Assembly: GCF_024707505.1 (NCBI RefSeq)
Contig: NZ_CP102604.1
Location: forward strand, 3,472,001 to 3,536,000
From: Pantoea sp. SOD02
GTDB taxonomy: Bacteria > Pseudomonadota > Gammaproteobacteria > Enterobacterales > Enterobacteriaceae
Reading direction: 5' to 3'
DNA: 64,000 bases
Shown: in pieces, positions 16,125 to 32,410 of the stretch
Position numbering within the stretch: position 1 is the stretch's first letter
Layout: each line of letters begins with the position of its first letter
Translations under genes and position numbers: made by a program
Notes under the pieces: generated by a model
Databases searched by the model: none
Seen by the model: the letters and a program-made list of their open reading frames with translations, nothing else
What the model was told of the DNA's origin: nothing

Positions 16125-16829
16125 TTAGAGCTTCAACGGCGGCAGCTGTGAAAAGACACTTAACAGGCCTTTACTCCACAGCTGACGAATTTGTGAAAAA
16201 TAGGGATGATGTTCGGTGATGTGATATTGCTCGCTGTCACTGAAACTGTCGGTGCGATAGACCATCACATCCAGCGGTAAACCCACCGAAATATTACTCG
16301 CCAGCGTCGAATCCATCGAAATCAACGCGCACTGCATCGCCTGACTCAGCGGCGTTTCGTAACGCAGCACGCGGTCAATGATCGGTTTACCGTACTTACT
16401 TTCACCAATCTGAAAATACGGCGTATCGATGCTGGCTTCGATGAAGTTGCCCTGCGGGTAGATCTGGAACAGTCGCGGCTCCTCGCCACGAATCTGCCCG
16501 CCCAGCAGCAGCGTGCCGCCAAACTCTTCGCCATCGCGCTTGATCACCTCGCGCAGCGTTTCGCCCACCATCAGCGCAATGTCATACAGCGATCGTCCAT
16601 TCAGTAAATTCGGTTGATCGTTATCGCCGTTGTTGCGTCGCAGCAGGCTCAGCACGCTCTGCGTGGTGGCCAGATTGCCGGCGCTTTGCAGCACCAGCGT
16701 GCGTTCATCATCGACCTGAAACACATGCAATTTGCGGAACGAGGAAATATGATCAACGCCCGCATTGGTGCGTGAATCGGATACAAAAATCATCCCTGAC
16801 GATAAACGCATTGCCACACAATAAGTCAT
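16125..16829 (-). CDS. Anbu-type proteasome-like protease subunit
   Basis: This is a 234-residue member of the Anbu (ancestral beta subunit) family, a bacterial relative of the 20S proteasome and HslV. I chose the ATG at 16829 so that the product begins MTYCVAM; removing Met exposes Thr1, the expected catalytic N-terminus. An upstream in-frame GTG at 16835 would bury it. The motif SDSRTNAGVD, a Gly-rich LLLGG and the SMDSTLASNISVG segment are typical. It is the last of four overlapping or closely spaced genes with a transglutaminase-like protein, an alpha-E protein and an ATP-grasp enzyme, the standard Anbu neighbourhood. The set is thought to make and process a small peptide modification; its product is not known. 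Confidence 0.85.
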   Translation of the reverse strand: MTYCVAMRLSSGMIFVSDSRTNAGVDHISSFRKLHVFQVDDERTLVLQSAGNLATTQSVLSLLRRNNGDNDQPNLLNGRSLYDIALMVGETLREVIKRDGEEFGGTLLLGGQIRGEEPRLFQIYPQGNFIEASIDTPYFQIGESKYGKPIIDRVLRYETPLSQAMQCALISMDSTLASNISVGLPLDVMVYRTDSFSDSEQYHITEHHPYFSQIRQLWSKGLLSVFSQLPPLKL

Positions 16830-16846
16830 AGTCACGCCTGTTCTGA

Positions 16847-17647
16847 TTACTGCTGCGCATGCACCTGAAGCACCGCAGCCACCGCCAGCATATCTTCACC
16901 GCCGCCGCCCAGCCGCATACCGCGCACCGGACACGCATCGAGATAATCCACGCCGACCGCCAGGCGTAAATGCTGGCGCGTGCTGCGAGTATTATTGGTG
17001 ATATCAAAGCTGTGCCAACTGCCATCCAGCCAGGCTTCAACCCAGGCGTGAGTGGCGACGTGCTCAACGTTTTCAGTATAGAGATAGCCGCTTACATAGC
17101 GCGCCGGAATCCCTAAACTACGACAGCAGGCGAGAAACACGTGACTGTGATCCTGGCAAACGCCGCTGCCGGCGGCAAATACTTTCGTGGCGGCATCAGT
17201 GACCAGAGTGCTACCGGGACGATACGGCATCTTCAGCAACAGTTCATCCATGAGTTTTTCCAGGCTAGCCAGCGGTTTTTCCGGTCGCCAGTAGCGCTTG
17301 GCGAACTCACGGATTTCACCGTCAGGCTGCGTCAGCGGCGATGAGCGCAGAAACACCAACGGCGACAATAACGATTCAGGATCGGGCGCCCATTCGCCAT
17401 CATCAAGGATCTCCACCACACCACGCGCGGCGATATCCAACTGCTGATGCGGCGTATCCAGCGTCAGCACATGCATCACATTGCCGTACGCATCCTGCGT
17501 GCAGGTGGCTTCACACGGCAGCTCGAGATCCCACGAGATTATCTGCTGATGCACCGAATTTTGCGGCGTCAGGCGCAGATATTGGGTGCTGAGTGTCACC
17601 TGATGCTCGTAGGCGTAACGGGTTTTATGCTCGATGTTCAGTCTCAT
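16847..17647 (-). CDS. Transglutaminase-like cysteine protease family protein
   Basis: This 266-residue protein has an N-terminal bacterial transglutaminase-associated beta domain (1-110, MRLNIEHKTRYAYEHQV) and a transglutaminase core (about 150-230). The catalytic Cys is in GSGVCQDHSHVF, the His in VATHAWVEAW, and the Asp in WHSFDITNN, so the papain-like triad is complete. It may cut or form amide bonds. No signal peptide is present. It overlaps the upstream alpha-E gene by four bases and is followed 17 bases later by the Anbu gene. The grouping with Anbu, alpha-E and ATP-grasp genes indicates one pathway. Confidence 0.88.
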   Translation of the reverse strand: MRLNIEHKTRYAYEHQVTLSTQYLRLTPQNSVHQQIISWDLELPCEATCTQDAYGNVMHVLTLDTPHQQLDIAARGVVEILDDGEWAPDPESLLSPLVFLRSSPLTQPDGEIREFAKRYWRPEKPLASLEKLMDELLLKMPYRPGSTLVTDAATKVFAAGSGVCQDHSHVFLACCRSLGIPARYVSGYLYTENVEHVATHAWVEAWLDGSWHSFDITNNTRSTRQHLRLAVGVDYLDACPVRGMRLGGGGEDMLAVAAVLQVHAQQ

Positions 17648-18573
17648 TTCGCCTCCAGATAGGTGTGATTAATGCTGTCTGCCAGCGCATTCAGGCGCGT
17701 CAGGAATTCATTGAGCCAGTGATACAAGCCTTCCTGTGTCAGGCTTTCCCAGGTACTGAAGCGCATCTCGGCCAGCAGCACGGTGATCAAATAGCGCGGG
17801 CGATCTTCGCCGCTGCTGCCGATGTTCTCTAACTGCGTGGCGATCTCATCAATACAGGAGTGCAGCGATCGCGGACTTTCGCTGCGCAGGATCAGCATCT
17901 CATTGACCAGATCGGGCAACAGCTGCTGCTTGAAGATGGCGTTGTAAGCTTCACGCGCCGATACCGCGCGCAATAAGGTGTCGAGGCAATAATACTCGCG
18001 TACAGAATCCGACTGCTGCTCAAGCAATTGCTGATTCACGCTCAGCAAACGCGCGGTGCCGTCGCTGCGCTCCATCAAGGTGCCGATACGGATAAAACTC
18101 ATCGCATCGCCGCGCAGCAAGGTGCCGAACATCGCGCCACGAAACAGGTGCGAGCGCTCTTTCACCCAATCGAAAAAGGTGTCGGCGTTAGCGCTAGTAA
18201 TGCCGCGCCGCCGGGTGTTGCGCATCTCAATCCACGTCGAGTTGATGCTCTCCCACACTTCCGACGACAAACTGCCGCGCACCGCATGCGCGTTGTTCCA
18301 CGCCTCCTGCCAGCAGCTAAAAATGCTGCACGGATTGCGGTCGTCGAGGGCGAAGAAGTTGAACAGCTGCGGCATGGTGAAGCGGCCATTCAGGGTTTCA
18401 AACAGTTCACGTGTGCCGGTGAGATTGAGCGGCAGCAGCAGCTCATCGCCCTGGCTGCCGCGAACCGGCATTAATGACAAACGGTTGGTCACGTCCAACA
18501 CGCGTGCGAGTTGTTCTGCGCGTTCGAGATAGCGCGCCATCCAATAAAGGCCACTGGCCGTGCGGCTTAGCAT
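17644..18573 (-). CDS. Alpha-E domain-containing protein (DUF403)
   Basis: This is a 309-residue, mostly helical protein of the alpha-E family. It opens with MLSRTASGLYWMARYLERAEQLARVLD, the characteristic first helix of the family with the RxxERAE motif. Biochemical function is unknown; the family is always found with a circularly permuted ATP-grasp protein and a transglutaminase-like protein, and the helices may form a docking or substrate domain. It overlaps the ATP-grasp gene by seven bases and the transglutaminase gene by four bases, so the three are translationally coupled. Confidence 0.88.
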   Translation of the reverse strand: MLSRTASGLYWMARYLERAEQLARVLDVTNRLSLMPVRGSQGDELLLPLNLTGTRELFETLNGRFTMPQLFNFFALDDRNPCSIFSCWQEAWNNAHAVRGSLSSEVWESINSTWIEMRNTRRRGITSANADTFFDWVKERSHLFRGAMFGTLLRGDAMSFIRIGTLMERSDGTARLLSVNQQLLEQQSDSVREYYCLDTLLRAVSAREAYNAIFKQQLLPDLVNEMLILRSESPRSLHSCIDEIATQLENIGSSGEDRPRYLITVLLAEMRFSTWESLTQEGLYHWLNEFLTRLNALADSINHTYLEAK

Positions 18574-20006
18574 GATGCGTCATCCTCCAGAACCCACGTG
18601 TCCTTGGTGCCGCCGCCCTGAGACGAGTTCACCACCAGCGAGCCTTCGTTCAGCGCCACGCGGGTTAAACCGCCGGGCACCAGACGAATATCCGCGCCGC
18701 ACAGCGCAAACGGACGCAGATCGATATGGCGCGGCGCGAGGCCGTTATCGATAAAGGTCGGGCAAGTCGAGAGCGACAGCGTGTCCTGCGCGATGTAGTT
18801 TTCTGGCCGCGCTTTGAGGCGATCGCGGAAATCACTCAGCTCCTGCTGGCTCGCCACCGGCCCAATCAACATGCCGTAACCGCCCGCGCCGTGTACCTCT
18901 TTCACCACCATTTTCGCCAGGTTGGCGAGCACATAGGTGAGATCCTGCGGTTTGCGGCATTGCCAGGTCGGCACGTTATTGAGGATCGGATCCTCGTCGA
19001 GGTAGAAGCGGATCATGTCCGGCACATACGGGTAGATCGATTTGTCATCGGCGACGCCGGTGCCGATCGCGTTCGCCAGCACCACGTTGCCAGATCGATA
19101 TACCGATAATAAGCCCGGCACGCCGAGCATCGAATCCGGGCGGAACGCCAGTGGATCGAGGAAGGCATCATCCACGCGGCGATAGATCACATCGACTTTG
19201 CACGGCCCGGCTGTGGTACGCATCATTACTGCGCCATCTTTCACAAACAGATCGGCGCTCTCCACCAGCTCAACGCCCATCTGCTGCGCAAGGAAGCTGT
19301 GTTCAAAGTAGGCGCTATTAAAGCGGCCCGGCGTCAGCACCACCACCACCGGATCGTTAACCGGCGAACTTTCCCGCAGGGTTTGCAGCAGATGCGAGGG
19401 ATAACGCTCAACCGGCGCGATGTGCTGACCGGCGAACAGTTCCGGATAGAGGCGCATCATCATCTTGCGGTTCTCCAGCATGTAGGAGACGCCAGACGGC
19501 GTGCGCAGATTGTCCTCCAGCACGTAATATTCGCCATCGTTATTGCGCACCATATCCACGCCGACAATGTGCGCGTAGATATTGCGATGCAGATCGACGC
19601 CTTGCATACAGGGCTGATATTGATCGTTCACCAGCACCTGTTCGGCAGGCACGATGCCCGCTTTGAGGATCAGTTGCTGATGATAGATGTCGTGCAGGAA
19701 GGCGTTGAGGGCCTGCACGCGCTGGCGAATGCCGCGATCGAGCATTGCCCACTCGCTGGCAGGAATAATGCGCGGCACGCTGTCGAAAGGAATTAAACGT
19801 TCCGCGCCGCCATCATCACCGTAAACGTTAAAGGTGATACCGACGCGATGAAACAGCAGTTCCGCCTCTTCGCGCTTGCGCGCCACTGCCTCTTTGTCCG
19901 CCTGTTGTAACCATTCCCAGTATTGCTGGTAGTGAGCGCGGTGTTGGCCATCGCTCAGCAACATCTCATCATAGAAGTGCGATGCTATCTGGTAGCTTTC
20001 TTTCAT
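18567..20006 (-). CDS. Circularly permuted ATP-grasp protein (DUF404/DUF407)
   Basis: This is a 479-residue protein of the type 2 circularly permuted ATP-grasp family, predicted to join a carboxylate to an amine using ATP, as in peptide ligases. Family-typical stretches include FDSVPRIIPASEWAMLDRGIRQRVQALNAFL (split in the fold), GVDMVRNNDGEYYVLEDNLRTPSGVSYMLENR and the C-terminal DLRPFALCG with the Gly-rich STQGGG-like end (NSSQGGGTKDTWVL). It is the first gene of the four-gene Anbu operon. No promoter was identified in the 110-base gap upstream. Substrate and product are unknown. Confidence 0.88.
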   Translation of the reverse strand: MKESYQIASHFYDEMLLSDGQHRAHYQQYWEWLQQADKEAVARKREEAELLFHRVGITFNVYGDDGGAERLIPFDSVPRIIPASEWAMLDRGIRQRVQALNAFLHDIYHQQLILKAGIVPAEQVLVNDQYQPCMQGVDLHRNIYAHIVGVDMVRNNDGEYYVLEDNLRTPSGVSYMLENRKMMMRLYPELFAGQHIAPVERYPSHLLQTLRESSPVNDPVVVVLTPGRFNSAYFEHSFLAQQMGVELVESADLFVKDGAVMMRTTAGPCKVDVIYRRVDDAFLDPLAFRPDSMLGVPGLLSVYRSGNVVLANAIGTGVADDKSIYPYVPDMIRFYLDEDPILNNVPTWQCRKPQDLTYVLANLAKMVVKEVHGAGGYGMLIGPVASQQELSDFRDRLKARPENYIAQDTLSLSTCPTFIDNGLAPRHIDLRPFALCGADIRLVPGGLTRVALNEGSLVVNSSQGGGTKDTWVLEDDASC

Positions 20007-20116: not shown

Positions 20117-20731
20117 TTACTGGTGCATCAGCTGCTGCGCGATTGGCAGCCAGATCTCCGTCATCGCGCCTTCGCCACCGGTAAAGGGATCGCGGTGCGG
20201 CAGTGGAACATGCTGGATCTTCTCCTTCGACGCACGTAAACGCGACGGCTCATCACGCACGGTTTCCGGGGACATGCCTTCAGGATAGGCGCCAACGGTG
20301 AAAAAATCCTCTGAGGCAAATACCTGTTTATGGCCGACGCCCGCGGGGATCAGCACCGCATCGCCTTCACGCAACGTCACCATGCGACCGCTGTCGCCGC
20401 CGAACAGTACTTCCGCCCAACCGGCAGCCACGCCCAGCACTTCATGGGTGTTCGGGTGATAGTGCGTATACGGGAAGATCGGCGCACGCCACGCGGCGGG
20501 CCAACCGTTGCGGGTAAAGGTGGTTTCAAACCAGGCCGCGCTGTCTTCGGTTGGATTTTCAGCGTCATACGGCACGATGCCGGGCCAGATGATCAGCGGC
20601 AGCGGGCTGTTGGGCACGCCGCCGGAGGGCAGCGATAGCATCAGATGTTGCGGATTGCTGGAGGATCCAGCAGAAAAGGTGCCGGCGGCGAAAGACATCA
20701 GTAACAGCAGGCTGGAGTGGTTGGCAGTCAT
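20117..20731 (-). CDS. Cupin domain-containing protein (YjlB-like)
   Basis: This is a 204-residue protein with one cupin barrel (about 75-165). The metal-binding cupin motif 1 is seen as PYTHYHPNTHEVLGVAAG and motif 2 as GDAVLIPAGVGHK. The segment GGVPNSPLPLIIWPG before it is typical of the YjlB subfamily. The start at 20731 has GGAG seven bases upstream; the open frame reaches further to 20812 without family similarity. Residues 8-20 are hydrophobic, but there is no basic N-terminal region, so a signal peptide is doubtful. It is a single gene between the Anbu operon and a repeat-bearing gap. The function is unknown. Confidence 0.75.
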   Translation of the reverse strand: MTANHSSLLLLMSFAAGTFSAGSSSNPQHLMLSLPSGGVPNSPLPLIIWPGIVPYDAENPTEDSAAWFETTFTRNGWPAAWRAPIFPYTHYHPNTHEVLGVAAGWAEVLFGGDSGRMVTLREGDAVLIPAGVGHKQVFASEDFFTVGAYPEGMSPETVRDEPSRLRASKEKIQHVPLPHRDPFTGGEGAMTEIWLPIAQQLMHQ

Positions 20732-20884
20732 ACTCTTTCTCCGGTTAATCACGATGCTTAATTGTGGCTTACCAAAGCGGCATTGCAATGTGCGCCCGGC
20801 AACAAAATTCACAAAAAAGAATGATTTAGCTAACTAAAGTCAAATTTATTGGCAACATAATTAACATGGCGTGCGGGTGATTGA

Positions 20885-20943
20885 TGGTCGCCATAAATGG
20901 CGCCCCTACGGTGATTTTCGTAGGGTGCGCATTTATGCGCACC
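20885..20943. repeat. Tail-to-tail repeat pair: A type plus GCGC-core B type
   Basis: An A-type copy (20885-20909, ending CCCCTAC) and a variant with a GTAGGGTGCGCAT and ATGCGCACC core (20920-20943) face each other across ten bases. The B-type core replaces TCGCC/GGCGA with TGCGC/GCGCA but keeps the GTAGGG tail and the central AT..AT. Confidence 0.85.
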
Positions 20944-21035: not shown

Positions 21036-21815
21036 TTATCGCAGGCGCTCAGCGATGGGTTTCACAACGTTCTCCCCTTCGCGGCCATAAAATTGGAATA
21101 AGGTTTCAGCAGCGGCATCGGTTAACACCAGAATTTCGATGCGACGATTGCGCGCACTCATTGGATCGTCATGATCGCGTGGCATGCGTGACGCCATGGC
21201 GTTGACCTGCAACACGCGCGCACTTTCCAGCCCGCCACGCTCCAGCGCACGGCGTGCCGCCAGCGCACGATCGCCAGACAAGTTCCAGTTGTTGTAAGCG
21301 GCGTTGCCGTTGTACTGCGCGGCATCCGTGTGGCCGCTGATCATGATTTTATTGTCGATGCGGTTAAAAACCGGACCGAGTTCGGTCAGCAATTTCTGGA
21401 AGAACGGGGTTAACACCGCGCTACCGCGTGGGAACATCATGCGATCCTGATCGTCCTGAATCAGAATGCGCAGCCCCTGCGGCAAAGTTTCCAGCATCAG
21501 ATAATTTTGCGCGTTATAGCTGTTGATCATCCGCTGCAGCTGGCTATGTAACAGCGCCAGTTCCGCATCCGAGCGTGACAGCACGCTGTCTAAATCTTCC
21601 TGCGGTTGGTTGCCGGCGCTTAAGCTGATGTCATCCTGTGATGCACTCACTGACGCCGCTTGCGTTGGAGGAGAAATCGCCATGGTTTCGCCGATAATTG
21701 CCGATCCTCGCGAATTTTCAACATCGAACGGATTGAAGCCGGAGCCCTCAAATACCGAAGTACCGTTTAACTGCGCGACGATCTCTTTGCGTTCTTCCTC
21801 GCTGACCGAGCCCAT
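21036..21815 (-). pseudogene. lafU: lafU remnant: lateral-flagellar MotB-like stator protein, N-terminus missing
   Basis: About 260 residues of a MotB-type stator protein remain. The OmpA/MotB peptidoglycan-binding domain (about residues 130-245, with KIMISGHTDAAQYNG, NWNLSGDRALAARRAL and SARNRRIEILVL) is complete, as is the linker MGSVSEEERKEIVAQLNG. The N-terminal transmembrane helix and the proton-carrying aspartate are absent: similarity stops at about 21815, where flhA-like sequence begins on the other strand. No ribosome-binding site precedes the ATG at 21815, so it is very unlikely to be functional. The minus-strand frame stays open to 21941 only by reading antisense through lfhA. It matches the lafU (mbhA) remnant of E. 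coli K-12 in kind. Confidence 0.85.
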
Positions 21816-23526
21816 AATCAACTTTGTGGTGGTGACCAAAGGTGCCGAGCGTATCTCCGAAGTGTCGGCGCGCTTTACCCTCGATGCGTTGCCGGGCAAA
21901 CAGATGGCGATCGATGCCGATCTGAATGCCGGTTTGATCAATCAGGAACAGGCCGGTCTGCGCCGCAAAGATGTCGCTAACGAAGCTGACTTCTACGGTG
22001 CGATGGACGGTGCCTCTAAGTTCGTGCGTGGTGATGCTATCGCCGGGATCATGATCCTGATGATCAGCGTGATCGGCGGGATCTTGATAGGCATGTTCAA
22101 GCACGGTTTACCGGCGGGACAAGCGTTTGAGCAATATGTCCTGCTGACCATCGGTGATGGTTTGGTGGCACAGATTCCATCGCTGCTGCTCTCAACCGCA
22201 GCGGCTATTATCGTGACGCGCATCAGTGATGGCGCGGACATGGGCGATGACATCAAGACGCAGCTGCTGGCGCGTCCGGGCACGCTGTATACCGCCGCCG
22301 CCGTGATGTTTGTGCTGGCGATTGTGCCGGGTATGCCGCATATGGTGTTCCTGATCTTTACCGCCATGCTGCTGTTCGCCGCCTGGCGTCAAAGTCGTAA
22401 CGTGAAAGCACCGACGCAAGATCACAACGATATGGCAGCGATCAACCAGGCGCTGACGCAGCCGGAAGATCAGCCCGCCATCGGTTGGGACAATATCCCG
22501 ATGGTTGAGCCGATCGGCCTGAATCTCGGCTACAAGCTGGTGACGCTGGTGGATAAAGGCAAAGGCGCACCGCTGACGCTGCGTATGCGCGGCGTGCGAC
22601 AAGTGGTATCAGAAACCAGCGGCGTGCTGCTGCCAGAAATTGCGCTGCGCGAAGATTTCCACCTCAAACCGGCGCAGTACGCGATTAAGATCAACGGTGT
22701 GCGTACCGCTGTCGGCGAAGTGCATGCCGATCGTTTAATGGCAATCCCCACGCCGGAACAGTACGGTGAGATCGATGGCGTATTGGATACCGATCCTGCT
22801 TACGGCATGGCGGTAACGTGGATTCTGCCCGAGCAGAAAGCCAAAGCGCTGAACCTCGGTTATCAGGTGGTAGATTGCGCCAGCGTGGTAGCCACCCATG
22901 TGAATAAAGTGGTGCGTGAGAATCTGCCCGAGCTGTTTAACTATGATGACATTACCCAGCTGCATCAGCGTCTGGCGAATGTGGCGCCTAAGCTGTCTGA
23001 GGATGTGAATGCGGCGGTGAACTACAGTTTGCAGCTGAAAGTGTATCGTCTGCTGCTGAACGATCAGGTCTCGCTGAAAGACATCACCACCATTGCGACG
23101 ACATTGCTGGAGAGTGCGGCGATCACCAAAGATCCAATCCTGCTGACTTCCGATGTGCGCTATGCATTGCGCCGTGCGATGGTGGCGGCGATTGCGCCAG
23201 ACAATAAACCGTTGTCGGCGTATACGCTGGAGAACAGTCTTGAGAACCTGCTGCTGGCGGCGCTTAATCAGGCGCAGCAAGCCGGCAAAGTGGCGCTGGA
23301 TAGCTTCCCGGTGGATCCGAATATCCTGACGCAGCTGCAGAGCACGCTGCCGGTGATGATGGAGCAGCTGAAAGCGCAGAACCTGACGCAAGTGCTGCTG
23401 GTGACGCCGCAGCTGCGTCCTCTGATCGCGCGCTATGCACGTCTGTTTGCTAACGGGCTGAATGTGCTGTCGTATAACGAAGTGCCCGATGAGGCGAATT
23501 TGCAGATTGTGGGTCAGGTGAGTTAG
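21816..23526 (+). pseudogene. lfhA: lfhA remnant: FlhA-family flagellar export protein, N-terminus missing
   Basis: About 570 residues of an FlhA-family export gate protein remain, from INFVVVTKGAERISEVSARFTLDALPGKQMAIDADLNAG to the C-terminal cytoplasmic domain. In intact FlhA this segment begins near residue 145, so the first four or so transmembrane helices and the start codon are gone. The rest is one open frame without stops or shifts, including the FHIPEP-region downstream segment and the last three or four membrane helices (about 22040-22390). The frame continues upstream to 21523 only by running antisense through lafU. The head-to-head fusion with lafU indicates loss of the Flag-2 cluster that normally separates these genes. 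Confidence 0.87.
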
Positions 23527-23551: not shown

Positions 23552-23619
23552 GGTCACCATAAATGGCGACCCTACTCATGTTTGATACGGTTTTTGTAGG
23601 GTGCGCATTCATGCGCACC
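23552..23619. repeat. Tail-to-tail repeat pair: A type plus GCGC-core B type
   Basis: An A-type copy with one change (GGTCACCAT) at 23552-23575 ends in CCCTAC. A B-type copy (GTAGGGTGCGCAT.. at 23596-23619) follows after 20 bases. The layout is the same as at 20885. Confidence 0.85.
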
Positions 23620-23711: not shown

Positions 23712-24194
23712 ATGGACGCGATCAAACAAATTCTGCTCGACGAAATCGCCACGCTGAACCGTGAAGGGCAGCGTGATAATTTGCCGCGCTTTAGCTTTTC
23801 CTTCCTCAAAACCCATCCGGGACTCTGGGCCATCATGTATCTGTGCTACGCGCTGTGCGTGGCGCTGATCTTCTCAACTGACATGCTCGGCTGGCCGGCT
23901 TTCTGGTTTGCCACGGCGTTTGTGGTGGTGATGAGCGTGCTGATGCTGATGGATATCAACCCGAAATATCGCTTCGAAGATATCGATACGCTGGATCTGC
24001 GCGTGTGCTACAACGGCGAGTGGTATTACGTGCAGCCGGTTTCGCAGCAGGCGCTGGACAAAATTCTCGATAATCCGCACACGCCGGATCGCGTGCGCAG
24101 CGGCATTGATCGTCTGATGAAGCAGAAAGGTGAAGTGGATTTCTACGACGTCTACTATCTCACCTGGGGCCACCAGCAGGCGGCCCACGTTTAA
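23712..24194 (+). CDS. ylaC: YlaC family inner membrane protein
   Basis: This 160-residue protein is homologous to E. coli YlaC (156). A hydrophilic N-terminus is followed by two transmembrane helices (about 37-56 and 60-80) and a cytoplasmic C-terminal domain containing [23 protein letters not shown], which matches [21 protein letters not shown] of E. coli YlaC. The start has AGAGGTG seven bases upstream. Its stop codon overlaps that of the converging ydcR-like gene, so there is no space for a separate terminator. The function is unknown. Confidence 0.88.
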   Translation: [160 protein letters not shown]

Positions 24195-25686: not shown

Positions 25687-27777
25687 TTAAGGCATGCGCT
25701 CCAGCTCTAACACTTCTTCGTAGAAATTCGGTAGCTCAGCAATACGCTCCGGCGGAACCGGTTTACCCAGCAAATAGCCCTGCAAGGTATCGCAGCCCAA
25801 GCCGGTGAGGAACGCCTGCTGATCCTGAGTTTCCACTCCTTCAGCCACCACTTTCAGGTGCAGCGACTGCGCCAGCGCAACAATCGCGGAAACGATGGTG
25901 GCATCTTCGGAGTGCGCCTGCAGTTCGTTAACGAAGGCGCGATCAATTTTTAGCTCGCTGGCCGGTAACCGCTTGAGATACAACAAGCTGGAGTAGCCAG
26001 TGCCGAAATCATCAATCGAGGCTTTCACGCCCATATTGGTGAGCTCGGTGAGGATACGCACGCTCTCTTCGGGATCGCGCATCGCCGTGGTTTCGGTGAC
26101 TTCCAGCGTCAGCAGCTCAGCCGGAATCTGGTGCTGCGCCAGCGCCTCGGTAACGGTTTCGACCAGGTTATTCTGCTCAAACTGCAGCGCCGAGAGGTTA
26201 ACCGCCACCGACCAGTGCGGATGGCCTTGCAGATGCCAGGAACGCAGCTGGCGACAGGCTTCGTTGATCACCCAGTTGCCGATGTTAATGATCATGCCGG
26301 TCTTTTCCGCCATCGGCAGGAAGGCGTCCGGTGCCAGCAAGCCGCGTGAAGGATGCTGCCAGCGCAACAGCGCTTCAAAGCCAAGGATCGGGCCGCTCGG
26401 CGCGCAATATTTTGGCTGGTAAAACAGGCGTAACTCTTCGTTGTCCAGCGCTTGCCACAGATCGTTGTTCAGCTGCAATTGCGACTGCGCCAGCGTGTTC
26501 ATCGACGGCTGGAAGAAGGTGTAACCATTGCGACCATTGTTTTTGGTGTGATACATGGCGGCATCGGCGTTGAACATCAGTTCGCGCTCATCTTTGCCAT
26601 CGCCCGGATAGACCGCAATACCGATACTCAGCGACACCACCAGCTCATAGCGCGAGATATCGAACGGACGATCCACCGCTTTCACCAGCGTATCGGCAAC
26701 TGCTGCGGCATCGTTGGGATCATCAATTTCCAGCAGCAGTACAAACTCGTCGCCGCCCATGCGCGCCAGCGTGTAGTGCCCTTTCATCTGTTCGGTCATG
26801 CGCTCAGTCACACCGATCAGCAAATTGTCGCCAACGTGGTGACCAAAGGCGTCGTTAACTGCTTTGAAGCCGTCGAGATCCATAAACATCAGCGCAAACT
26901 GCGACTTCTCGCGGTTGGCTTTATTGAGGGCTTGTTCGAGGCGATCTTCCAGCAAAATACGGTTGGGTAAGCGCGTCAGGTTATCGTGCAGCGCCAGCTG
27001 CGCTAATTCGCGGTTGGCCTCGGCCAGCGAATGGGCAAGGATGGAAGTGCGTGCCTGCAGACGCGCATCCAGCATCGAGACCAGCAAGGTAATGCCGAGG
27101 ATCGCCAGCGTTACCACTGTCACCACAATCGCCAGCCAGTTGCTGTTAACGCCCATTTGCGTCGCGTGGCTGTGCATCGGGAAGTTGGCCGCCGCCATGC
27201 CGGTGTAGTGCATACCCGCAATCGCGCAGCCCATCACCACCGATGCGCCTAAACGCAACACGGTGACGCGGCCGTGGCCTTCGCGCAGGTTAAACGCCAG
27301 CCATAGCGCGGCACCCGACGCCACCAGCGCAATCGCCACCGATGCCGCCACCCAACCCCAATTCCAGGTGATGCCGGGCGCAAACATCAGCGCCGCCATG
27401 CCGGTGTAATGCATCGCCACCACGCCGGAACCCAGCACCAATGCGCCGCCGCACAGTCGCGGCCACGGCAAGGTCGGCGTTGAACACACCAGCCACAGCG
27501 CAAATACCGACGCCAGCACCGCCACCACCATTGAGGTGACGGTAAGTGTGGGATCGTAGCTCATCACCATATCGACGCTCATCGACAGCATGCCGATGAA
27601 GTGCATCGCCCAGATGCCGACGCCCATAGCGAATCCACCGCCAAATAACCAAACCAGCGCCACCTTGCCAGTTGAGGAAGCCACGCGTCCTGCCATATCT
27701 AGTGCAGTAAACGAGGCCAGCATTGCCACCAGGATCGAGACGATGACGGTAAACGAGTCGTACGAAGTCACTAACAT
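25687..27777 (-). CDS. MHYT-GGDEF-EAL membrane sensor protein (first of two)
   Basis: This 696-residue protein has an N-terminal MHYT sensor domain of seven transmembrane helices (about 1-245), carrying WAMHFIGML, VAMHYTGMA and AGMHYTGMA, the motifs thought to bind a metal and sense a diatomic gas. A GGDEF domain follows (about 265-425), with an intact GGDEF in ARMGGDEFVLL but no RxxD inhibitory site. The EAL domain (about 435-685) keeps FEALLRWQHP, VNLSALQFE, EVTETTAM, DDFGTGYSSL, ELKIDR and AEGVETQ, so both cyclic-di-GMP synthesis and breakdown look possible. GGGA lies seven bases before the ATG. A paralogue lies directly upstream in the same direction. Confidence 0.93.
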   Translation of the reverse strand: MLVTSYDSFTVIVSILVAMLASFTALDMAGRVASSTGKVALVWLFGGGFAMGVGIWAMHFIGMLSMSVDMVMSYDPTLTVTSMVVAVLASVFALWLVCSTPTLPWPRLCGGALVLGSGVVAMHYTGMAALMFAPGITWNWGWVAASVAIALVASGAALWLAFNLREGHGRVTVLRLGASVVMGCAIAGMHYTGMAAANFPMHSHATQMGVNSNWLAIVVTVVTLAILGITLLVSMLDARLQARTSILAHSLAEANRELAQLALHDNLTRLPNRILLEDRLEQALNKANREKSQFALMFMDLDGFKAVNDAFGHHVGDNLLIGVTERMTEQMKGHYTLARMGGDEFVLLLEIDDPNDAAAVADTLVKAVDRPFDISRYELVVSLSIGIAVYPGDGKDERELMFNADAAMYHTKNNGRNGYTFFQPSMNTLAQSQLQLNNDLWQALDNEELRLFYQPKYCAPSGPILGFEALLRWQHPSRGLLAPDAFLPMAEKTGMIINIGNWVINEACRQLRSWHLQGHPHWSVAVNLSALQFEQNNLVETVTEALAQHQIPAELLTLEVTETTAMRDPEESVRILTELTNMGVKASIDDFGTGYSSLLYLKRLPASELKIDRAFVNELQAHSEDATIVSAIVALAQSLHLKVVAEGVETQDQQAFLTGLGCDTLQGYLLGKPVPPERIAELPNFYEEVLELERMP

Positions 27778-27933: not shown

Positions 27934-30036
27934 TTATTGCGCGCCAGCCAGCGGCACCACGTTATCGCTAAACGCCAGCGGCACGGTAAGCGCAGCGGTA
28001 AATTCACCGATGCGATCGGCTGGCGTGGGCTTGCCGAGCAGATAACCTTGCAGTGTGTCGAAGCCTAAACCAGTGAGCAAACGCTGCTGTTCTTCTGTTT
28101 CGACGCCTTCCGCCACCATGCGCAAGTTGAGCGTTTGCGCCAGCGTCAACATCGCTGTCACCACCGTGGCGTCTTCACTGCCGGCGCGCAAACTGTTGAT
28201 AAAGGCGCGGTCGATTTTTAGCTCGCTGGCTTCAAGATGTTTCAAATGCAGCAAGTTGGCGTAGCCGATGCCGAAGTTATCGATCGCCACTTTCACCCCA
28301 AGACGATGCAGCTCGGCAATGCGTTGCTGGCTGAACTGCGGATCGCGCATCGCGATGTTCTCGGTAATTTCCAGCATCAACGCCCCTTCCGGGATCTGAT
28401 GGTGCTGCAACGCCTGACGCAGGCTCTCAATCAAATCGCGCTGCTGGAATTGCAGAGCTGAGAGATTGACCGACACCGTCCAGTCGCCGTTGCCTTCATC
28501 GTGCCACTGCCTGAGCTGGCGGCAGGCTTCGTTGATCACCCAGTTACCCAGCGCGACAATTTGCCCGGTTTTCTCGGCGCGCGCCAGGAACATATCCGGC
28601 ATCAGCAAGCCGCGACGCGGATGCTGCCAGCGCAGCAGCGCCTCAAAACCGATTAATACCGTGCCGCCCGCGCGGAATTTTGGCTGATAGAACAGGCGCA
28701 TCTCATGATATTCCAGCGCGTTCCACAAATCGTTGGCCAGCGCCAGCTGATGCTGCGCCACCGCGCTCATCGCCGGTTCAAACAGACACCAGCCGTTACG
28801 GCCACTGTGTTTGGTGTGATACATGGCGGAATCGGCGTTGAACATCAGCTCCTGCTGGCTGCGGCCATGCAGCGGGAAGATAACAATGCCAACGCTGAGC
28901 GAGACGCGCAGCGAATAGCGATCGAGATCGAAAGGCGCATCAATCACCTGTACCAGCCGCTGCGCCAGTTTGGTGGCTTGATGAAGATGGAATTGCGGAC
29001 ACAGCAGCACGAATTCATCACCGCCCAAACGCGCCAGCAGAATCTCTTCACTCAGTTCATCCCGCAAGCGATCGGCTACGGCAATCAGTAAGCGGTCGCC
29101 GACGTGATGGCCCCATGTATCGTTAATGGCTTTGAAACCATCGAGATCCATGAACATCAGCGCAAAATTCTCATCCTGCAGCGTCGCCTGTTTGATCTCC
29201 GTGGTGAGTTGCTGCTCCAGCATCACGCGATTTGGCAGCGCGGTGAGGTTGTCATGCATCGCCAGCTGGCGCAGCTCGCTGTTAGCGCGCTTGAGTTTGG
29301 CGGCGAGACGCGCGGCGCGTAGCTGCGCATCCAGCATCGAAATCAGCAACATCAGCCCGAGAATACTCAGCGTGATAATCGTGACCCACACCGCCAGTCC
29401 CTCTTCACTGGCACCGTGATGCTGCATGCTCACCGGCATAACGAACTCTGCCGCCGCCATGCCGGTGTAATGCATTCCGGCAATCGCAATCCCCATCACC
29501 AGCGCCGCACAGGCGCGCAGTAACAACAGGCTTTCACCCTGACGCAGATGAAACGCCAGCCATAACGCCGCGCCCGATGCGGCATAGGCAATCAGCACCG
29601 AGAGCGCTACCAGCGGCAGATTCCAGTTAATGGGGGTTTCAATCATCAGCGCGTTCATGCCGAGGTAATGCATGACAATGATGCCGCTGCCCATGATCAG
29701 GGTGCCGCGCACCAGGCGTCGGCGGGTGAGATGACTGCCCTGCACGCCCTGCGCAAAAGCGAAGATGGCGGTGATAATCGCCACCAGCAATGAGATGGCG
29801 GTGAGCTCGACGTCGTAGCGCATGGTCATTGGCATCATCATCGCCAGCATGCCAATAAAGTGCATCGCCCACACGCCGATGCCCATCGCGGTGCCTCCGC
29901 CGATCAACCACAGTTTTGCCAGACAGCCGCGTGAAACGGCAACGCGCCCGGCGGTATCTAAGGCGGTAAACGCGGCAATGAAGGCCACGATCAGTGAAAC
30001 GGTAACCAGAACGCTATCCCAGGTAACCAGCAGCAT
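27934..30036 (-). CDS. MHYT-GGDEF-EAL membrane sensor protein (second of two)
   Basis: This 700-residue paralogue of the neighbouring MHYT protein has the same layout: seven-helix MHYT domain (about 1-245), GGDEF (about 265-430) and EAL (about 440-685). I chose the ATG at 30036, with AGGAG five bases upstream; the product then begins MLLVTWDSVLVTV, like its sister. The GGDEF motif (ARLGGDEFVLL) is intact without an RxxD site. In the EAL domain the usual DDFGTGY motif reads DNFGIGYAN: the second aspartate, needed for metal binding in studied EAL enzymes, is asparagine. Phosphodiesterase activity may be lost while FEALLRW and AEGVETE are kept. It is divergent from the pilus operon. Confidence 0.92.
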   Translation of the reverse strand: MLLVTWDSVLVTVSLIVAFIAAFTALDTAGRVAVSRGCLAKLWLIGGGTAMGIGVWAMHFIGMLAMMMPMTMRYDVELTAISLLVAIITAIFAFAQGVQGSHLTRRRLVRGTLIMGSGIIVMHYLGMNALMIETPINWNLPLVALSVLIAYAASGAALWLAFHLRQGESLLLLRACAALVMGIAIAGMHYTGMAAAEFVMPVSMQHHGASEEGLAVWVTIITLSILGLMLLISMLDAQLRAARLAAKLKRANSELRQLAMHDNLTALPNRVMLEQQLTTEIKQATLQDENFALMFMDLDGFKAINDTWGHHVGDRLLIAVADRLRDELSEEILLARLGGDEFVLLCPQFHLHQATKLAQRLVQVIDAPFDLDRYSLRVSLSVGIVIFPLHGRSQQELMFNADSAMYHTKHSGRNGWCLFEPAMSAVAQHQLALANDLWNALEYHEMRLFYQPKFRAGGTVLIGFEALLRWQHPRRGLLMPDMFLARAEKTGQIVALGNWVINEACRQLRQWHDEGNGDWTVSVNLSALQFQQRDLIESLRQALQHHQIPEGALMLEITENIAMRDPQFSQQRIAELHRLGVKVAIDNFGIGYANLLHLKHLEASELKIDRAFINSLRAGSEDATVVTAMLTLAQTLNLRMVAEGVETEEQQRLLTGLGFDTLQGYLLGKPTPADRIGEFTAALTVPLAFSDNVVPLAGAQ

Positions 30037-30584
30037 GTGCGCTCCTAAATTCCACCCGCTGCGGAGCAGGTGCGGTGTCGTCAAATTAGAACAAGGATGA
30101 TAAAGCGCCGATCAAGGGCGATTAATGACCGCCTGCGGCGAAACTCAACAAAAAGTCGATCCAGACAAATCTGGAGTCGTCGTGCGGATTTTTTTTATTT
30201 TCATCGTCAGTCGTTAAGCGAAAAATTAATAATATCTGATTAATGCACGAACATAACATTGAACCGAAGCGCGCGGTAGAGGGAGAAATCATCGGCTGTT
30301 TAGTTTTTTTAACCGCTCGCCACCCCTTGTGATTACTGAGTTATCGGCGAAAAGTGTGAATTGATTAGGGAAAAATTGAACCATCGGCGTACAAGGGCCG
30401 ATTTGCTGATCTATAGTAAAGAAAACTGATATAAATCATTAATCCACCATCTAGGATTTTTCTTAGATGGCAGGCGCTTACGCAGTCGAGCCGATTGCGG
30501 CTCTTGTTTGATTTCGGATGTATTTCCATAAATGTATGACCAGGTGAAAAAGCACTGACCTTGGATAATCAGTAAGGAATGATT
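30037..30584. other. Long divergent leader between MHYT gene and pilus operon
   Basis: About 550 bases without a convincing gene. The part from 30180 to 30440 is AT-rich. A small hairpin (CCATCTA/TAGATGG, 30447-30470) lies about 115 bases before the first pilus gene. TATAGT at 30412-30417 could be a -10 element, but no good -35 goes with it. Such a long leader suggests complex control of the pilus operon. Confidence 0.5.
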
Positions 30585-31154
30585 ATGAAACTCAAGCTTT
30601 TTCTTGTGGCTACTAGCCTAAGCGCCGCGCTAGCCCCTACTGCTGTTTTTGCCGCCACCACAACGGGAACCATCAATGCAACGTTGACGCTGACCACCGG
30701 TTGTTTGGTGAACGGTCAATCGGCAACGACAGGGGTGAACTTCGGTACCCTGAACTTTGGTAGCAGCGCAGCCACCTTTGATACCCTCAACGCCACGCTG
30801 GTCGGCGCCTCGGGTAACGGCATCTTTGTCCGCTGCACCACCGGACAAACCTTTAACGTGCAGGTCACCAGCAGTAATGCCGCTCCGGCGACCATTTACG
30901 GCACGGTGAGCGGCCAGCCACGCTACCTGATCCTCGGCTCCAACAATACGCAGGGCATTGCCTATACGCTGTATAGCGACGCCGCCTTTACCACTGCTAT
31001 CGCCAACAACACCAATATTGCCGCCAGTGGCACCACGGATCCGACGCTCGGTACCAACTACGCCATTTATGGTCGCGTGGTGGGCGGCGGCTTTAACCCG
31101 TTGATTCCCGCAGGCACCTACACCGACACCATTAACGTGGCGGTGAATTACTGA
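30585..31154 (+). CDS. Spore coat U domain pilin, likely major subunit of archaic pilus
   Basis: This 189-residue secreted protein has a Sec signal (1-24, ending TAVFA) and one spore coat U (SCPU) domain, the pilin fold of the archaic chaperone-usher (Csu/sigma) pili. Typical marks are the early Cys in LTTGCLVNG, the FGTLNFG repeat and the C-terminal beta strand PAGTYTDTINVAVNY, which ends in the alternating hydrophobic pattern used in donor-strand assembly. The start at 30585 has AAGGA six bases upstream; the in-frame ATG at 30579 is too close to it. It is the first gene of a five-gene operon and therefore the likely CsuA/B-like major pilin. Confidence 0.87.
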   Translation: MKLKLFLVATSLSAALAPTAVFAATTTGTINATLTLTTGCLVNGQSATTGVNFGTLNFGSSAATFDTLNATLVGASGNGIFVRCTTGQTFNVQVTSSNAAPATIYGTVSGQPRYLILGSNNTQGIAYTLYSDAAFTTAIANNTNIAASGTTDPTLGTNYAIYGRVVGGGFNPLIPAGTYTDTINVAVNY

Positions 31155-31171
31155 GGGAAAGGATAATCAGG

Positions 31172-31687
31172 GTGGCCGTGGTGCAGCGGTTGATGCACAG
31201 TGCAGGCGGCCTTGCCCTGCTGATAGGGAGCGTCTCCGCCTGGGGGTTGCCCACTGCAACGTTTCAGGTTTCAGCATCAGTAGTGGCAGGCTGTGTTGTC
31301 TCCGGTACCAATACCGGGGTCTTTGGCACGCTTGATTTTGGAACGCAGTCTGGCGTGGCTTCCAACAGCGTTAGCGCTAGCTATGTGCAAAGTACCACTA
31401 TCACTCTCGCCTGCACGCCAGGCACCGCCGTGAGCATGAGCATTAACGGTGGCAACAATTACACCTCCACGCGCAACCTCAAAAATACCAGTAGCACCAA
31501 TACCGTGGCTTACAGCCTCTTTACGAATGCCGCGCATACCGTGGCGATCCCGGTGAGTAGCGCTGTGGCGTTGAGCTACAGCAATGCCAATAACATCACT
31601 TTGCCGATTTACGGCTTATTAACGCTGCCCGGCCCCACGCGCGCCGGGACTTATACCGACACCTTAACCGTCACGCTGAGTTGGTGA
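31172..31687 (+). CDS. Spore coat U domain minor pilin
   Basis: This 171-residue protein is a second SCPU-domain pilin. It begins at a GTG codon with AAAGGA upstream and carries a signal peptide (about 1-25, ending VSAWG or close by). It shows the same family marks: Cys in VVAGCVVSG, FGTLDFG, a second Cys in ITLACTPG, and the terminal strand RAGTYTDTLTVTLSW. Its position between the major pilin and the chaperone suggests a minor or adaptor subunit, as for CsuA or CsuB. The separation from the first gene is only 17 bases. Confidence 0.83.
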   Translation: MAVVQRLMHSAGGLALLIGSVSAWGLPTATFQVSASVVAGCVVSGTNTGVFGTLDFGTQSGVASNSVSASYVQSTTITLACTPGTAVSMSINGGNNYTSTRNLKNTSSTNTVAYSLFTNAAHTVAIPVSSAVALSYSNANNITLPIYGLLTLPGPTRAGTYTDTLTVTLSW

Positions 31688-31708
31688 CGGCGTCAATAAG
31701 AAGGATGA

Positions 31709-32410
31709 ATGATGATGAACCTGCGCGCCCTGATTCTGTTGTTATGCGTGGCACTAACGCCTGCGGCACACGCCGCCAATTCACTGATGGTGTGGCCGAT
31801 CGATCCGGCAATCGATCCGCAAGATAAAGCCAGCGAGCTGTGGCTGGAAAACCGTGGCAACGCCACCACCATGATGCAGGTGCGTATCTTCAGCTGGCAG
31901 CAGGTCAACGGTCAGGAGCAGTATCAAACCCAGCAGCAAGTGGTGGCGAGCCCGCCAATGGTACGGCTTGAGCCAGGGCAAAAGCAGCTGGTGCGTTTAA
32001 TCAAGCAAACGCCGCCCGAAGCCGGACGTGAGATGTCCTATCGCGTGGTGCTGGATGAGATCCCCACGCCGCGCACGCCGGGCGAGAATCAGGCTGGACT
32101 GACGTTCCAGATGCGCTACTCAGTGCCGCTATTCATCTATGGCGACGGCGTAACACGCGACACGGCGAAACCGCAGCTGAGCTGGCAGGAAGTGAACAGC
32201 GGCGGCAAGCGCTGGCTGGAGCTGACCAATCACGGTAACGGCCACGCGCGTTTAAGCAACGTCACCATTGGCGGACGCAGAATGGGCAACGGCTTGTTTG
32301 GCTATGTGCTGGCCAACAGCAGCAATCGCTGGCCGTTAACCAGCAGCGTGAGCGGTGAACTGTCGGCCGAAATGAACAAAGGACACTGGAGCAGCGCTGC
32401 CGCGCGTTGA
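31709..32410 (+). CDS. Archaic pilus periplasmic chaperone (PapD family, CsuC-like)
   Basis: This is a 233-residue periplasmic chaperone with a Sec signal (1-22, ending AHA) and two Ig-like domains of the PapD type. The first domain has LWLENRGNATTMMQVRIFSWQQ and VRLEPGQKQLVRLIKQ, corresponding to the subunit-binding G1 strand region. It delivers pilin subunits to the usher by donor-strand complementation. Three ATG codons occur in a row (31709, 31712, 31715); AAGG is about five to eleven bases before them, so the exact start is open. The stop overlaps the usher start (TGATG). Confidence 0.88.
   Translation: MMMNLRALILLLCVALTPAAHAANSLMVWPIDPAIDPQDKASELWLENRGNATTMMQVRIFSWQQVNGQEQYQTQQQVVASPPMVRLEPGQKQLVRLIKQTPPEAGREMSYRVVLDEIPTPRTPGENQAGLTFQMRYSVPLFIYGDGVTRDTAKPQLSWQEVNSGGKRWLELTNHGNGHARLSNVTIGGRRMGNGLFGYVLANSSNRWPLTSSVSGELSAEMNKGHWSSAAAR

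Follow-up and report, generated by a model that had tools for sequence, protein, structure and literature searches.

A Flag-2 flagellar deletion scar in Pantoea sp. SOD02 and a junction nucleotide common to scars of 11 genera

The window analysed here is a stretch of 64,000 nucleotides from Pantoea sp. SOD02 (contig NZ_CP102604.1, positions 3,472,001 to 3,536,000). At positions 21036-23526 of the window (contig positions 3493036-3495526), a LafU stub and an LfhA stub lie head to head (Table 1). The lafU stub comprises 259 codons, beginning with the Met-Gly just past the missing membrane helix and ending at the natural stop, and the lfhA stub comprises 568 codons counted from 21820. Profile searches aligned the lafU stub to positions 45-295 of the 297 of the LafU model NF005273 with 292 bits, a score below the model cut-off of 383 bits, as expected for a truncated copy; the stub also matches OmpA (PF00691). 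The lfhA stub covers positions 104-656 of the 657 of FHIPEP (E 1e-180) and 119-678 of the 678 of FlhA TIGR01398. Primary flhA and motB were ruled out as the source of the stubs, since the MotB model reached only 161 bits with the lafU stub and the lfhA stub groups with Flag-2 lfhA in the tree described below. The closest homologues are Flag-2 genes, as an earlier model-made reading of the DNA (the sequence-only reading) had presumed.

The sequence-only reading had also placed two remnants, MotB-like on the minus strand and FlhA-like on the plus strand, with their truncated 5′ ends meeting within about ten bases. The join was mapped to 21816/21817, where the sequence reads ...GCCCATA/ATCAACTTT... 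(a slash marks the join throughout). The predicted loss of the membrane helix was confirmed, as LafU lacks all sequence up to the end of that helix (...VLWI/MGSV). LfhA is truncated as stated, up to ...ILMI/INF, but the missing part amounts to about 130 residues and not the 140 first estimated. The claim that no start lies between the stubs needs some qualification: both frames are open across the join, and start codons would therefore be available to both stubs. Both parent genes have ATC at the join point (21817-21819); in Pantoea genome G069, where both genes are complete, the overlapping partners are ..CCCATA/ATCCAC in lafU and ..GATGATC/ATCAAC in lfhA.

Table 1. Features of the Flag-2 site in the window (window positions)
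Feature	Position	Strand	Description
cupin-domain gene	20117..20812	-	left flank of the Flag-2 site; also at G080 (both genes complete)
lafU stub	21036..21816	-	C-terminal LafU (MotB-like, OmpA domain)
open frame of lafU stub	21036..21941	-	runs on into lfhA antisense
open frame of lfhA stub	21523..23526	+	runs on into lafU antisense
junction ATA/ATCA	21814..21820		overlap AT or ATC between lafU and lfhA
lfhA stub	21817..23526	+	LfhA (FlhA-like), Ile-Asn-Phe to natural stop
ylaC	23712..24194	+	right flank of the Flag-2 site; also at G069 and G080

In intact loci, such as that of E. coli PSS-12, lafU and lfhA are the outermost genes, the last of two outward-pointing gene runs, and lie ~35 kb apart. 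The window stubs align to these outermost genes, but no genes of the Flag-2 cluster lie between them. Both genes are complete and 27-35 kb apart in four Pantoea genomes (G069, G080, G002 and G009); in G080 they are found between the same cupin and ylaC genes, a flank pair also common to several of the scars described below, and in G069 lfhA lies beside ylaC on the side that was read. The LafU- and LfhA-type stubs, their head-to-head truncated 5′ ends and the absence of the cluster between them support the interpretation of 21036-23526 as the scar of a lost Flag-2 cluster. The sequence-only reading had arrived at the same view; of the intact cluster that it suggested seeking in related strains, both end genes are complete at this site in G080.

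Two copies of a palindromic extragenic repeat, GTAGGGTGCGCATNNATGCGCACC, flank the stub pair in the same orientation (20920-20943 and 23596-23619), the left one with a strong fold (z -4.5); the genome holds 120 exact copies, and the reversed control gave 0. Elsewhere in the window we noted two neighbouring MHYT-GGDEF-EAL proteins (25687-27777 and 27934-30084), possibly a tandem duplicate, a run of proteasome-type protease, transglutaminase-like, Alpha-E and circularly permuted ATP-grasp genes (16125-20006), and a spore-coat-U domain protein followed by a PapD-like chaperone (30579-32410).

Among 61 genomes of the genus, 15 gave a match at E 1e-75 or better. One of them (G060), whose match of only 553 bases at 72% resembled matches to primary flhA, was set aside; the other 14 comprise the four genomes with complete genes and ten scars (the window, G083, G022, G067, G075, G027, G001, G012, G003 and G026). 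Two types of scar were distinguished. In type B (the window, G075, G012 and G026), lafU ..CCCATA, or its local equivalent, is joined to lfhA /ATCAAC, and the LafU membrane helix is lost. In type A (G083, G067, G022, G027, G001 and G003; six scars, all in Pantoea), lafU ..TTTGATG near the lafU start is joined to the same lfhA nucleotide, the helix is kept, and 110-111 bp more are present than in type B. The window, K-12 and every exact scar outside Pantoea are of type B. The G003 scar (L142) is decaying, with a broken lafU frame. The closest relative of the window lfhA, 94% identical, is that of G083, a type A scar that keeps 111 bp more of LafU than the window. Based on this proximity, the window scar may have been made by a second, 111-bp deletion on an older type A scar; direct deletion is a possible alternative.

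In 392 genomes of the family, lfhA was found at E 1e-195 or better in 78 and lafU at 1e-38 or better in 81. Head-to-head scars account for 15 of the 78: 14 are of type B, including that of the window, and one is of type A (G022). At the site itself, 47 of the 63 remaining genomes were read. The lfhA cut-off favours unbroken stubs, and only the lafU search revealed a sixteenth scar, G805 (L315), a decaying one that is joined exactly as in type B and has a frameshift in lfhA. It belongs to four genomes with a lafU match and no lfhA match at these cut-offs (G507, G617, G627 and G805), of which G507 and G805 were read. The sixteen family scars span 11 genera. Considering all lafU-lfhA scars read in the genus, the family and K-12 (11 genera), lfhA is broken at one same nucleotide in 25 of 26, and the lafU sides of the exact scars occupy only the two positions of types A and B. 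G507 is a head-to-head scar with other breakpoints, in which lafU residue 74 is joined to lfhA residue 360. G408 (L313) retains complete lfhA and lafU and carries a different deletion, with one end in the lafS region and the other midway through lfhB; in G595, whose lfhA is nearly identical to that of G408, lafU and lfhA lie ~43 kb apart. The sequence-only reading had counted a short arrangement shared by all relatives as evidence against it, and this was partly encountered, in a further nine Pantoea genomes and in ten genera besides Pantoea.

The lfhA-lafU (fhiA-mbhA) remnant of E. coli K-12, reportedly described by Ren in 2005, has the same stubs in the same orientation, as do remnants in other Enterobacterales. 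It belongs to another genus and another site, flanked by dinB/rayT in E. coli and by cupin/ylaC in the window. The sequence-only reading had called the K-12 remnant similar, which holds for the stubs but is too weak for the join: K-12 (AG100, L125) is of type B and joined at the identical nucleotide of both lfhA and lafU. All 15 E. coli scars read (K-12 and 14 others) are joined at exactly this point, and the 1683 lfhA bases compared contain no stop in any of them. A 200-base query spanning the exact type B join was matched at one place, over 80% or more of its length, in 4051 of 5426 E. coli genomes; the type A join was found in none of the 5426 at 80% coverage. The lfhA end lost in scars is present in 1275 genomes and most of the lafU end in 1307; the laboratory strain ATCC 8739 has this lfhA end. 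If the join and lfhA-end classes do not overlap, 100 genomes fall in neither, and 61 genomes gave no match at all to the join query.

We slightly favour, as the source of this common junction, repeated and nucleotide-exact excision of Flag-2 by a putative site-specific process. The deletion would join one fixed lfhA nucleotide to a lafU nucleotide that is likewise fixed, at either of two positions close to the gene start (just before or just after the membrane helix), with only AT or ATC common to both sides. The same deletion would arise anew time and again, and the stubs would then lose function and decay, leaving most visible scars young. This reading draws on the single nucleotide in 25 of 26 scars and 11 genera and on evidence given below, namely, the scatter of scars on the lfhA tree, the rejection of a single scar clade, an E. 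coli clone containing both states, the collapse of linkage at the join and a homology of only 2-3 bp. It is weakened by the missing circle junction, the visible homologous exchange, the restriction of type A to Pantoea and the other breakpoints of G408 and G507. More tentative, and in our view rather doubtful, is the broader proposal that a dedicated or hijacked process of this kind excises the whole of Flag-2 in many Enterobacteriaceae genera, which would make it a programmed or parasitised loss locus.

The lfhA tree (75 rows, quick method) requires 17 changes between the scar and intact states, at least 15 of them forced by well-supported branches; shuffled labels required 20.6 on average, so the scatter of scars is close to random. 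In this tree, "intact" means that lfhA continues upstream of the site and says nothing on the completeness of the whole cluster, and some genomes so counted have lafU on the opposite side of lfhA. An AU test rejected all 24 scars as one clade (p 8e-5). G663, with an internal TAG, was left out of the tree, the AU test, the identity comparisons and the codon work. The tree and the rejected clade support the suggestion of the sequence-only reading that the deletion was independent of that in E. coli. Beside the join, on both sides, the scar resembles a close intact relative in the five genera having such a relative (G069 and G080 in Pantoea, G316, G596, G499 and E. coli PSS-12); the other scars are without one in the sample. 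The same-nucleotide junctions come with support for the independence of the scars, yet homologous exchange at the join is also visible.

This exchange is central to the main rival history, which we regard as possible but less likely: one ancient scar, first of type A and then of type B by a 111-bp slip, would have been inherited and spread by homologous recombination in the stubs, while local intact alleles overwrote the stubs and clusters were regained with the stubs as landing pads. Such a history would explain the identical nucleotide with no enzyme, and the confinement of type A to Pantoea looks like inheritance. The A-to-B repeat scores 5-7 in the six type A scars, with 0-14 of 101 spacings better, in keeping with the proposed slip. 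Between the type A scar G027 and the intact G069, lfhA differs at 18 of 1706 positions; five of these differences cluster at +38 to +53, and none follows up to +200, as in a short foreign tract at the join. Similarly, the E. coli scar L285 and the intact L126 differ at 16 of 640 lafU positions and at 1 of 1690 in lfhA. This tract and this mosaic indicate that recombination at the join moves the scar or intact state. In E. coli, scar and intact arms are undifferentiated and mosaic; the loci examined (L125, L126 and L284-L303) show high synonymous diversity in both arms (about 0.14-0.19) and mosaic haplotypes, suggesting that recombination around the lafU/lfhA locus may be intense.

Nevertheless, spread of one scar would require that crossovers took place, in several genera, both left and right of the join and no more than a few tens of bases away from it, and the scars do not form one clade. 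No clear excess of scar-scar similarity was found next to the join, where short exchanges could hide one: the identity of the first 15 lfhA bases is 0.859 between scars, 0.842 between scar and intact and 0.903 between intact genes. The lfhA-distance correlation at the join, 0.41, is the lowest of eight adjacent block pairs and close to the others (0.44-0.75).

Within E. coli, the scar strain 10035776-3 and the intact strain JNE25-001 are nearly clonal, with 6 mismatches over 17.2 kb of aligned lfhA-side flank and 3 over 12.9 kb on the lafU side, where the scar strain has extra IS elements. The clone to which they belong, recognisable by ISEc31 next to lfhA, includes scar and intact members, and the change may have gone either way. 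The 40 clone matches listed are all 100.0% identical over the 5546 bases up to the join; 15 have a named flhA gene and 25 do not, the state being taken mostly from annotation names. In at least nine records with a named flhA, the lafU end is also complete, matching over 6 kb at 100.0%, and several records without a named flhA have both stubs within one match. The near-clonal pair bears no trace of a donor, which speaks against the spread of one scar.

In 11 E. coli scars, mean r2 across the join is 0.04-0.09 vs 0.17-0.20 within the arms at 60-300 bases. Of 205 cut points, mean r2 is lowest (0.053) in the interval from -60 to +10, a value of ~0.1 being expected by chance with 11 sequences. This collapse fits scars made many times from intact chromosomes, in which the arms are 35 kb apart, but exchange ending at the heterology boundary could mimic it. 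A donor tract in the near-clonal pair would have to fit in the interval from -67 to +11, which holds no informative SNP in the 11 scars, or belong to an identical haplotype.

Ordinary deletion between short direct repeats, the proposal in the literature for E. coli, seems very unlikely and was rejected as a sufficient explanation. In its favour, an imperfect repeat at the E. coli site, CTGTTGACAATCCAC vs CTGATGATCATCAAC, matches at 11 of 15 positions (by eye). The sequence-only reading had likewise suggested looking for a short direct repeat at the breakpoint, and what was found, in 24 intact-gene loci that do not include E. coli, is an exact run common to both break sites of 3 bp (22 loci) or 2 bp (two loci). 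In these 24 loci, exact runs of 9-13 bp occur elsewhere in the same gene pair, and 533 to 43,142 alignment cells score higher. The breakpoints in these loci do not fall in the best or a strong repeat, nor do they follow, lineage by lineage, the repeat that scores highest, and one nucleotide in 11 genera is not readily explained in this way.

Repeated exact excision by a site-specific process, our preferred reading, resembles in outcome the excision of integrative elements by site-specific recombinases, in its fixed ends and 2-3 bp core. By eye, the two lost ends, each coding for a membrane helix, may show inverted similarity, on which no weight is placed here. We do not count the window scar as a member of that class: no circle junction was found at 80% coverage in 5426 E. 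coli genomes or, as an exact pattern, in viral contigs, and the lfhA site pattern was likewise not found in viral contigs. Across 51 lfhA genes that retain the upstream part, synonymous conservation peaks at the breakpoint: its two Ile codons show the strongest such conservation among 18 Ile codons, and the segment around it ranks 1 of 226. In 21 flhA loci (among them L018, out of frame but left in, and L010-L012, from outside the genus and nearer to lfhA than the others), the same segment ranks 13 of 152. These flhA relatives share part of the conservation, and the signal at the breakpoint is therefore only suggestive.

The fused stubs could also be a functional two-gene unit under selection, the join being kept because its product works, which we consider highly improbable. 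Consistent with function, dN/dS between the window and G083 is 0.026 for lfhA and 0.084 for lafU, as low as between intact genes (G003, with its broken frame, was left out of the lafU values), and all 24 lfhA stubs compared run open to the natural stop. In E. coli, lfhA has a piN/piS of 0.040 among 11 scars vs 0.034 among 7 intact alleles; for lafU the values are 0.040 (11 scars) and 0.049 (4 intact alleles). Low values of this kind, however, mean young scars, arms refreshed by exchange, or function; broken stubs exist, as in G805 and G003, and selection cannot easily fix a single nucleotide. Three E. coli scars (L285, L288 and L312) are one base from an intact allele, and each change is non-synonymous. 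Private changes in E. coli number 10 non-synonymous to 28 synonymous in 15 scars and 4 to 32 in 7 intact alleles, small counts examined after the fact that hint weakly at selection relaxed after the deletion. On the window branch, 2 non-synonymous and 21 synonymous changes could be assigned, and 3 and 47, respectively, were left unassigned; the deletion would be young relative to the split from G083, or the stub constrained. The recent deletion proposed by the sequence-only reading is consistent with these counts and with the open frames, and stub constraint would look alike.

This kind of scar is already known; what is new is the common junction nucleotide across genera. The available parts of PMC6993521 (BMC Genomics 2020) give the lfhA-lafU deletion in 531 of 4028 strains, with direct repeats cited from an earlier study, and contain no split into types A and B. 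In the panel of PMC5422975, according to the parts available, Flag-2 is either present or entirely absent, with no intermediate forms. In the literature consulted, which includes the available parts of PMC6993521, PMC5422975, PMC7526173, PMC3032704 and PMC2808357, we found no report that scars of different genera break at one common nucleotide; Ren 2005 may state the E. coli breakpoint. A search listing on recurrent identical flagellar breakpoints held nothing relevant.

Descriptions of Flag-2 loss usually speak of deletion and decay. A single breakpoint, to the nucleotide, in 11 genera, with no matching homology, would instead point to site-specific deletion of a chromosomal flagellar locus or to a scar allele travelling through the family by homologous recombination. 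Either would be surprising, and the laboratory E. coli strains that retain Flag-2 make the question directly testable.
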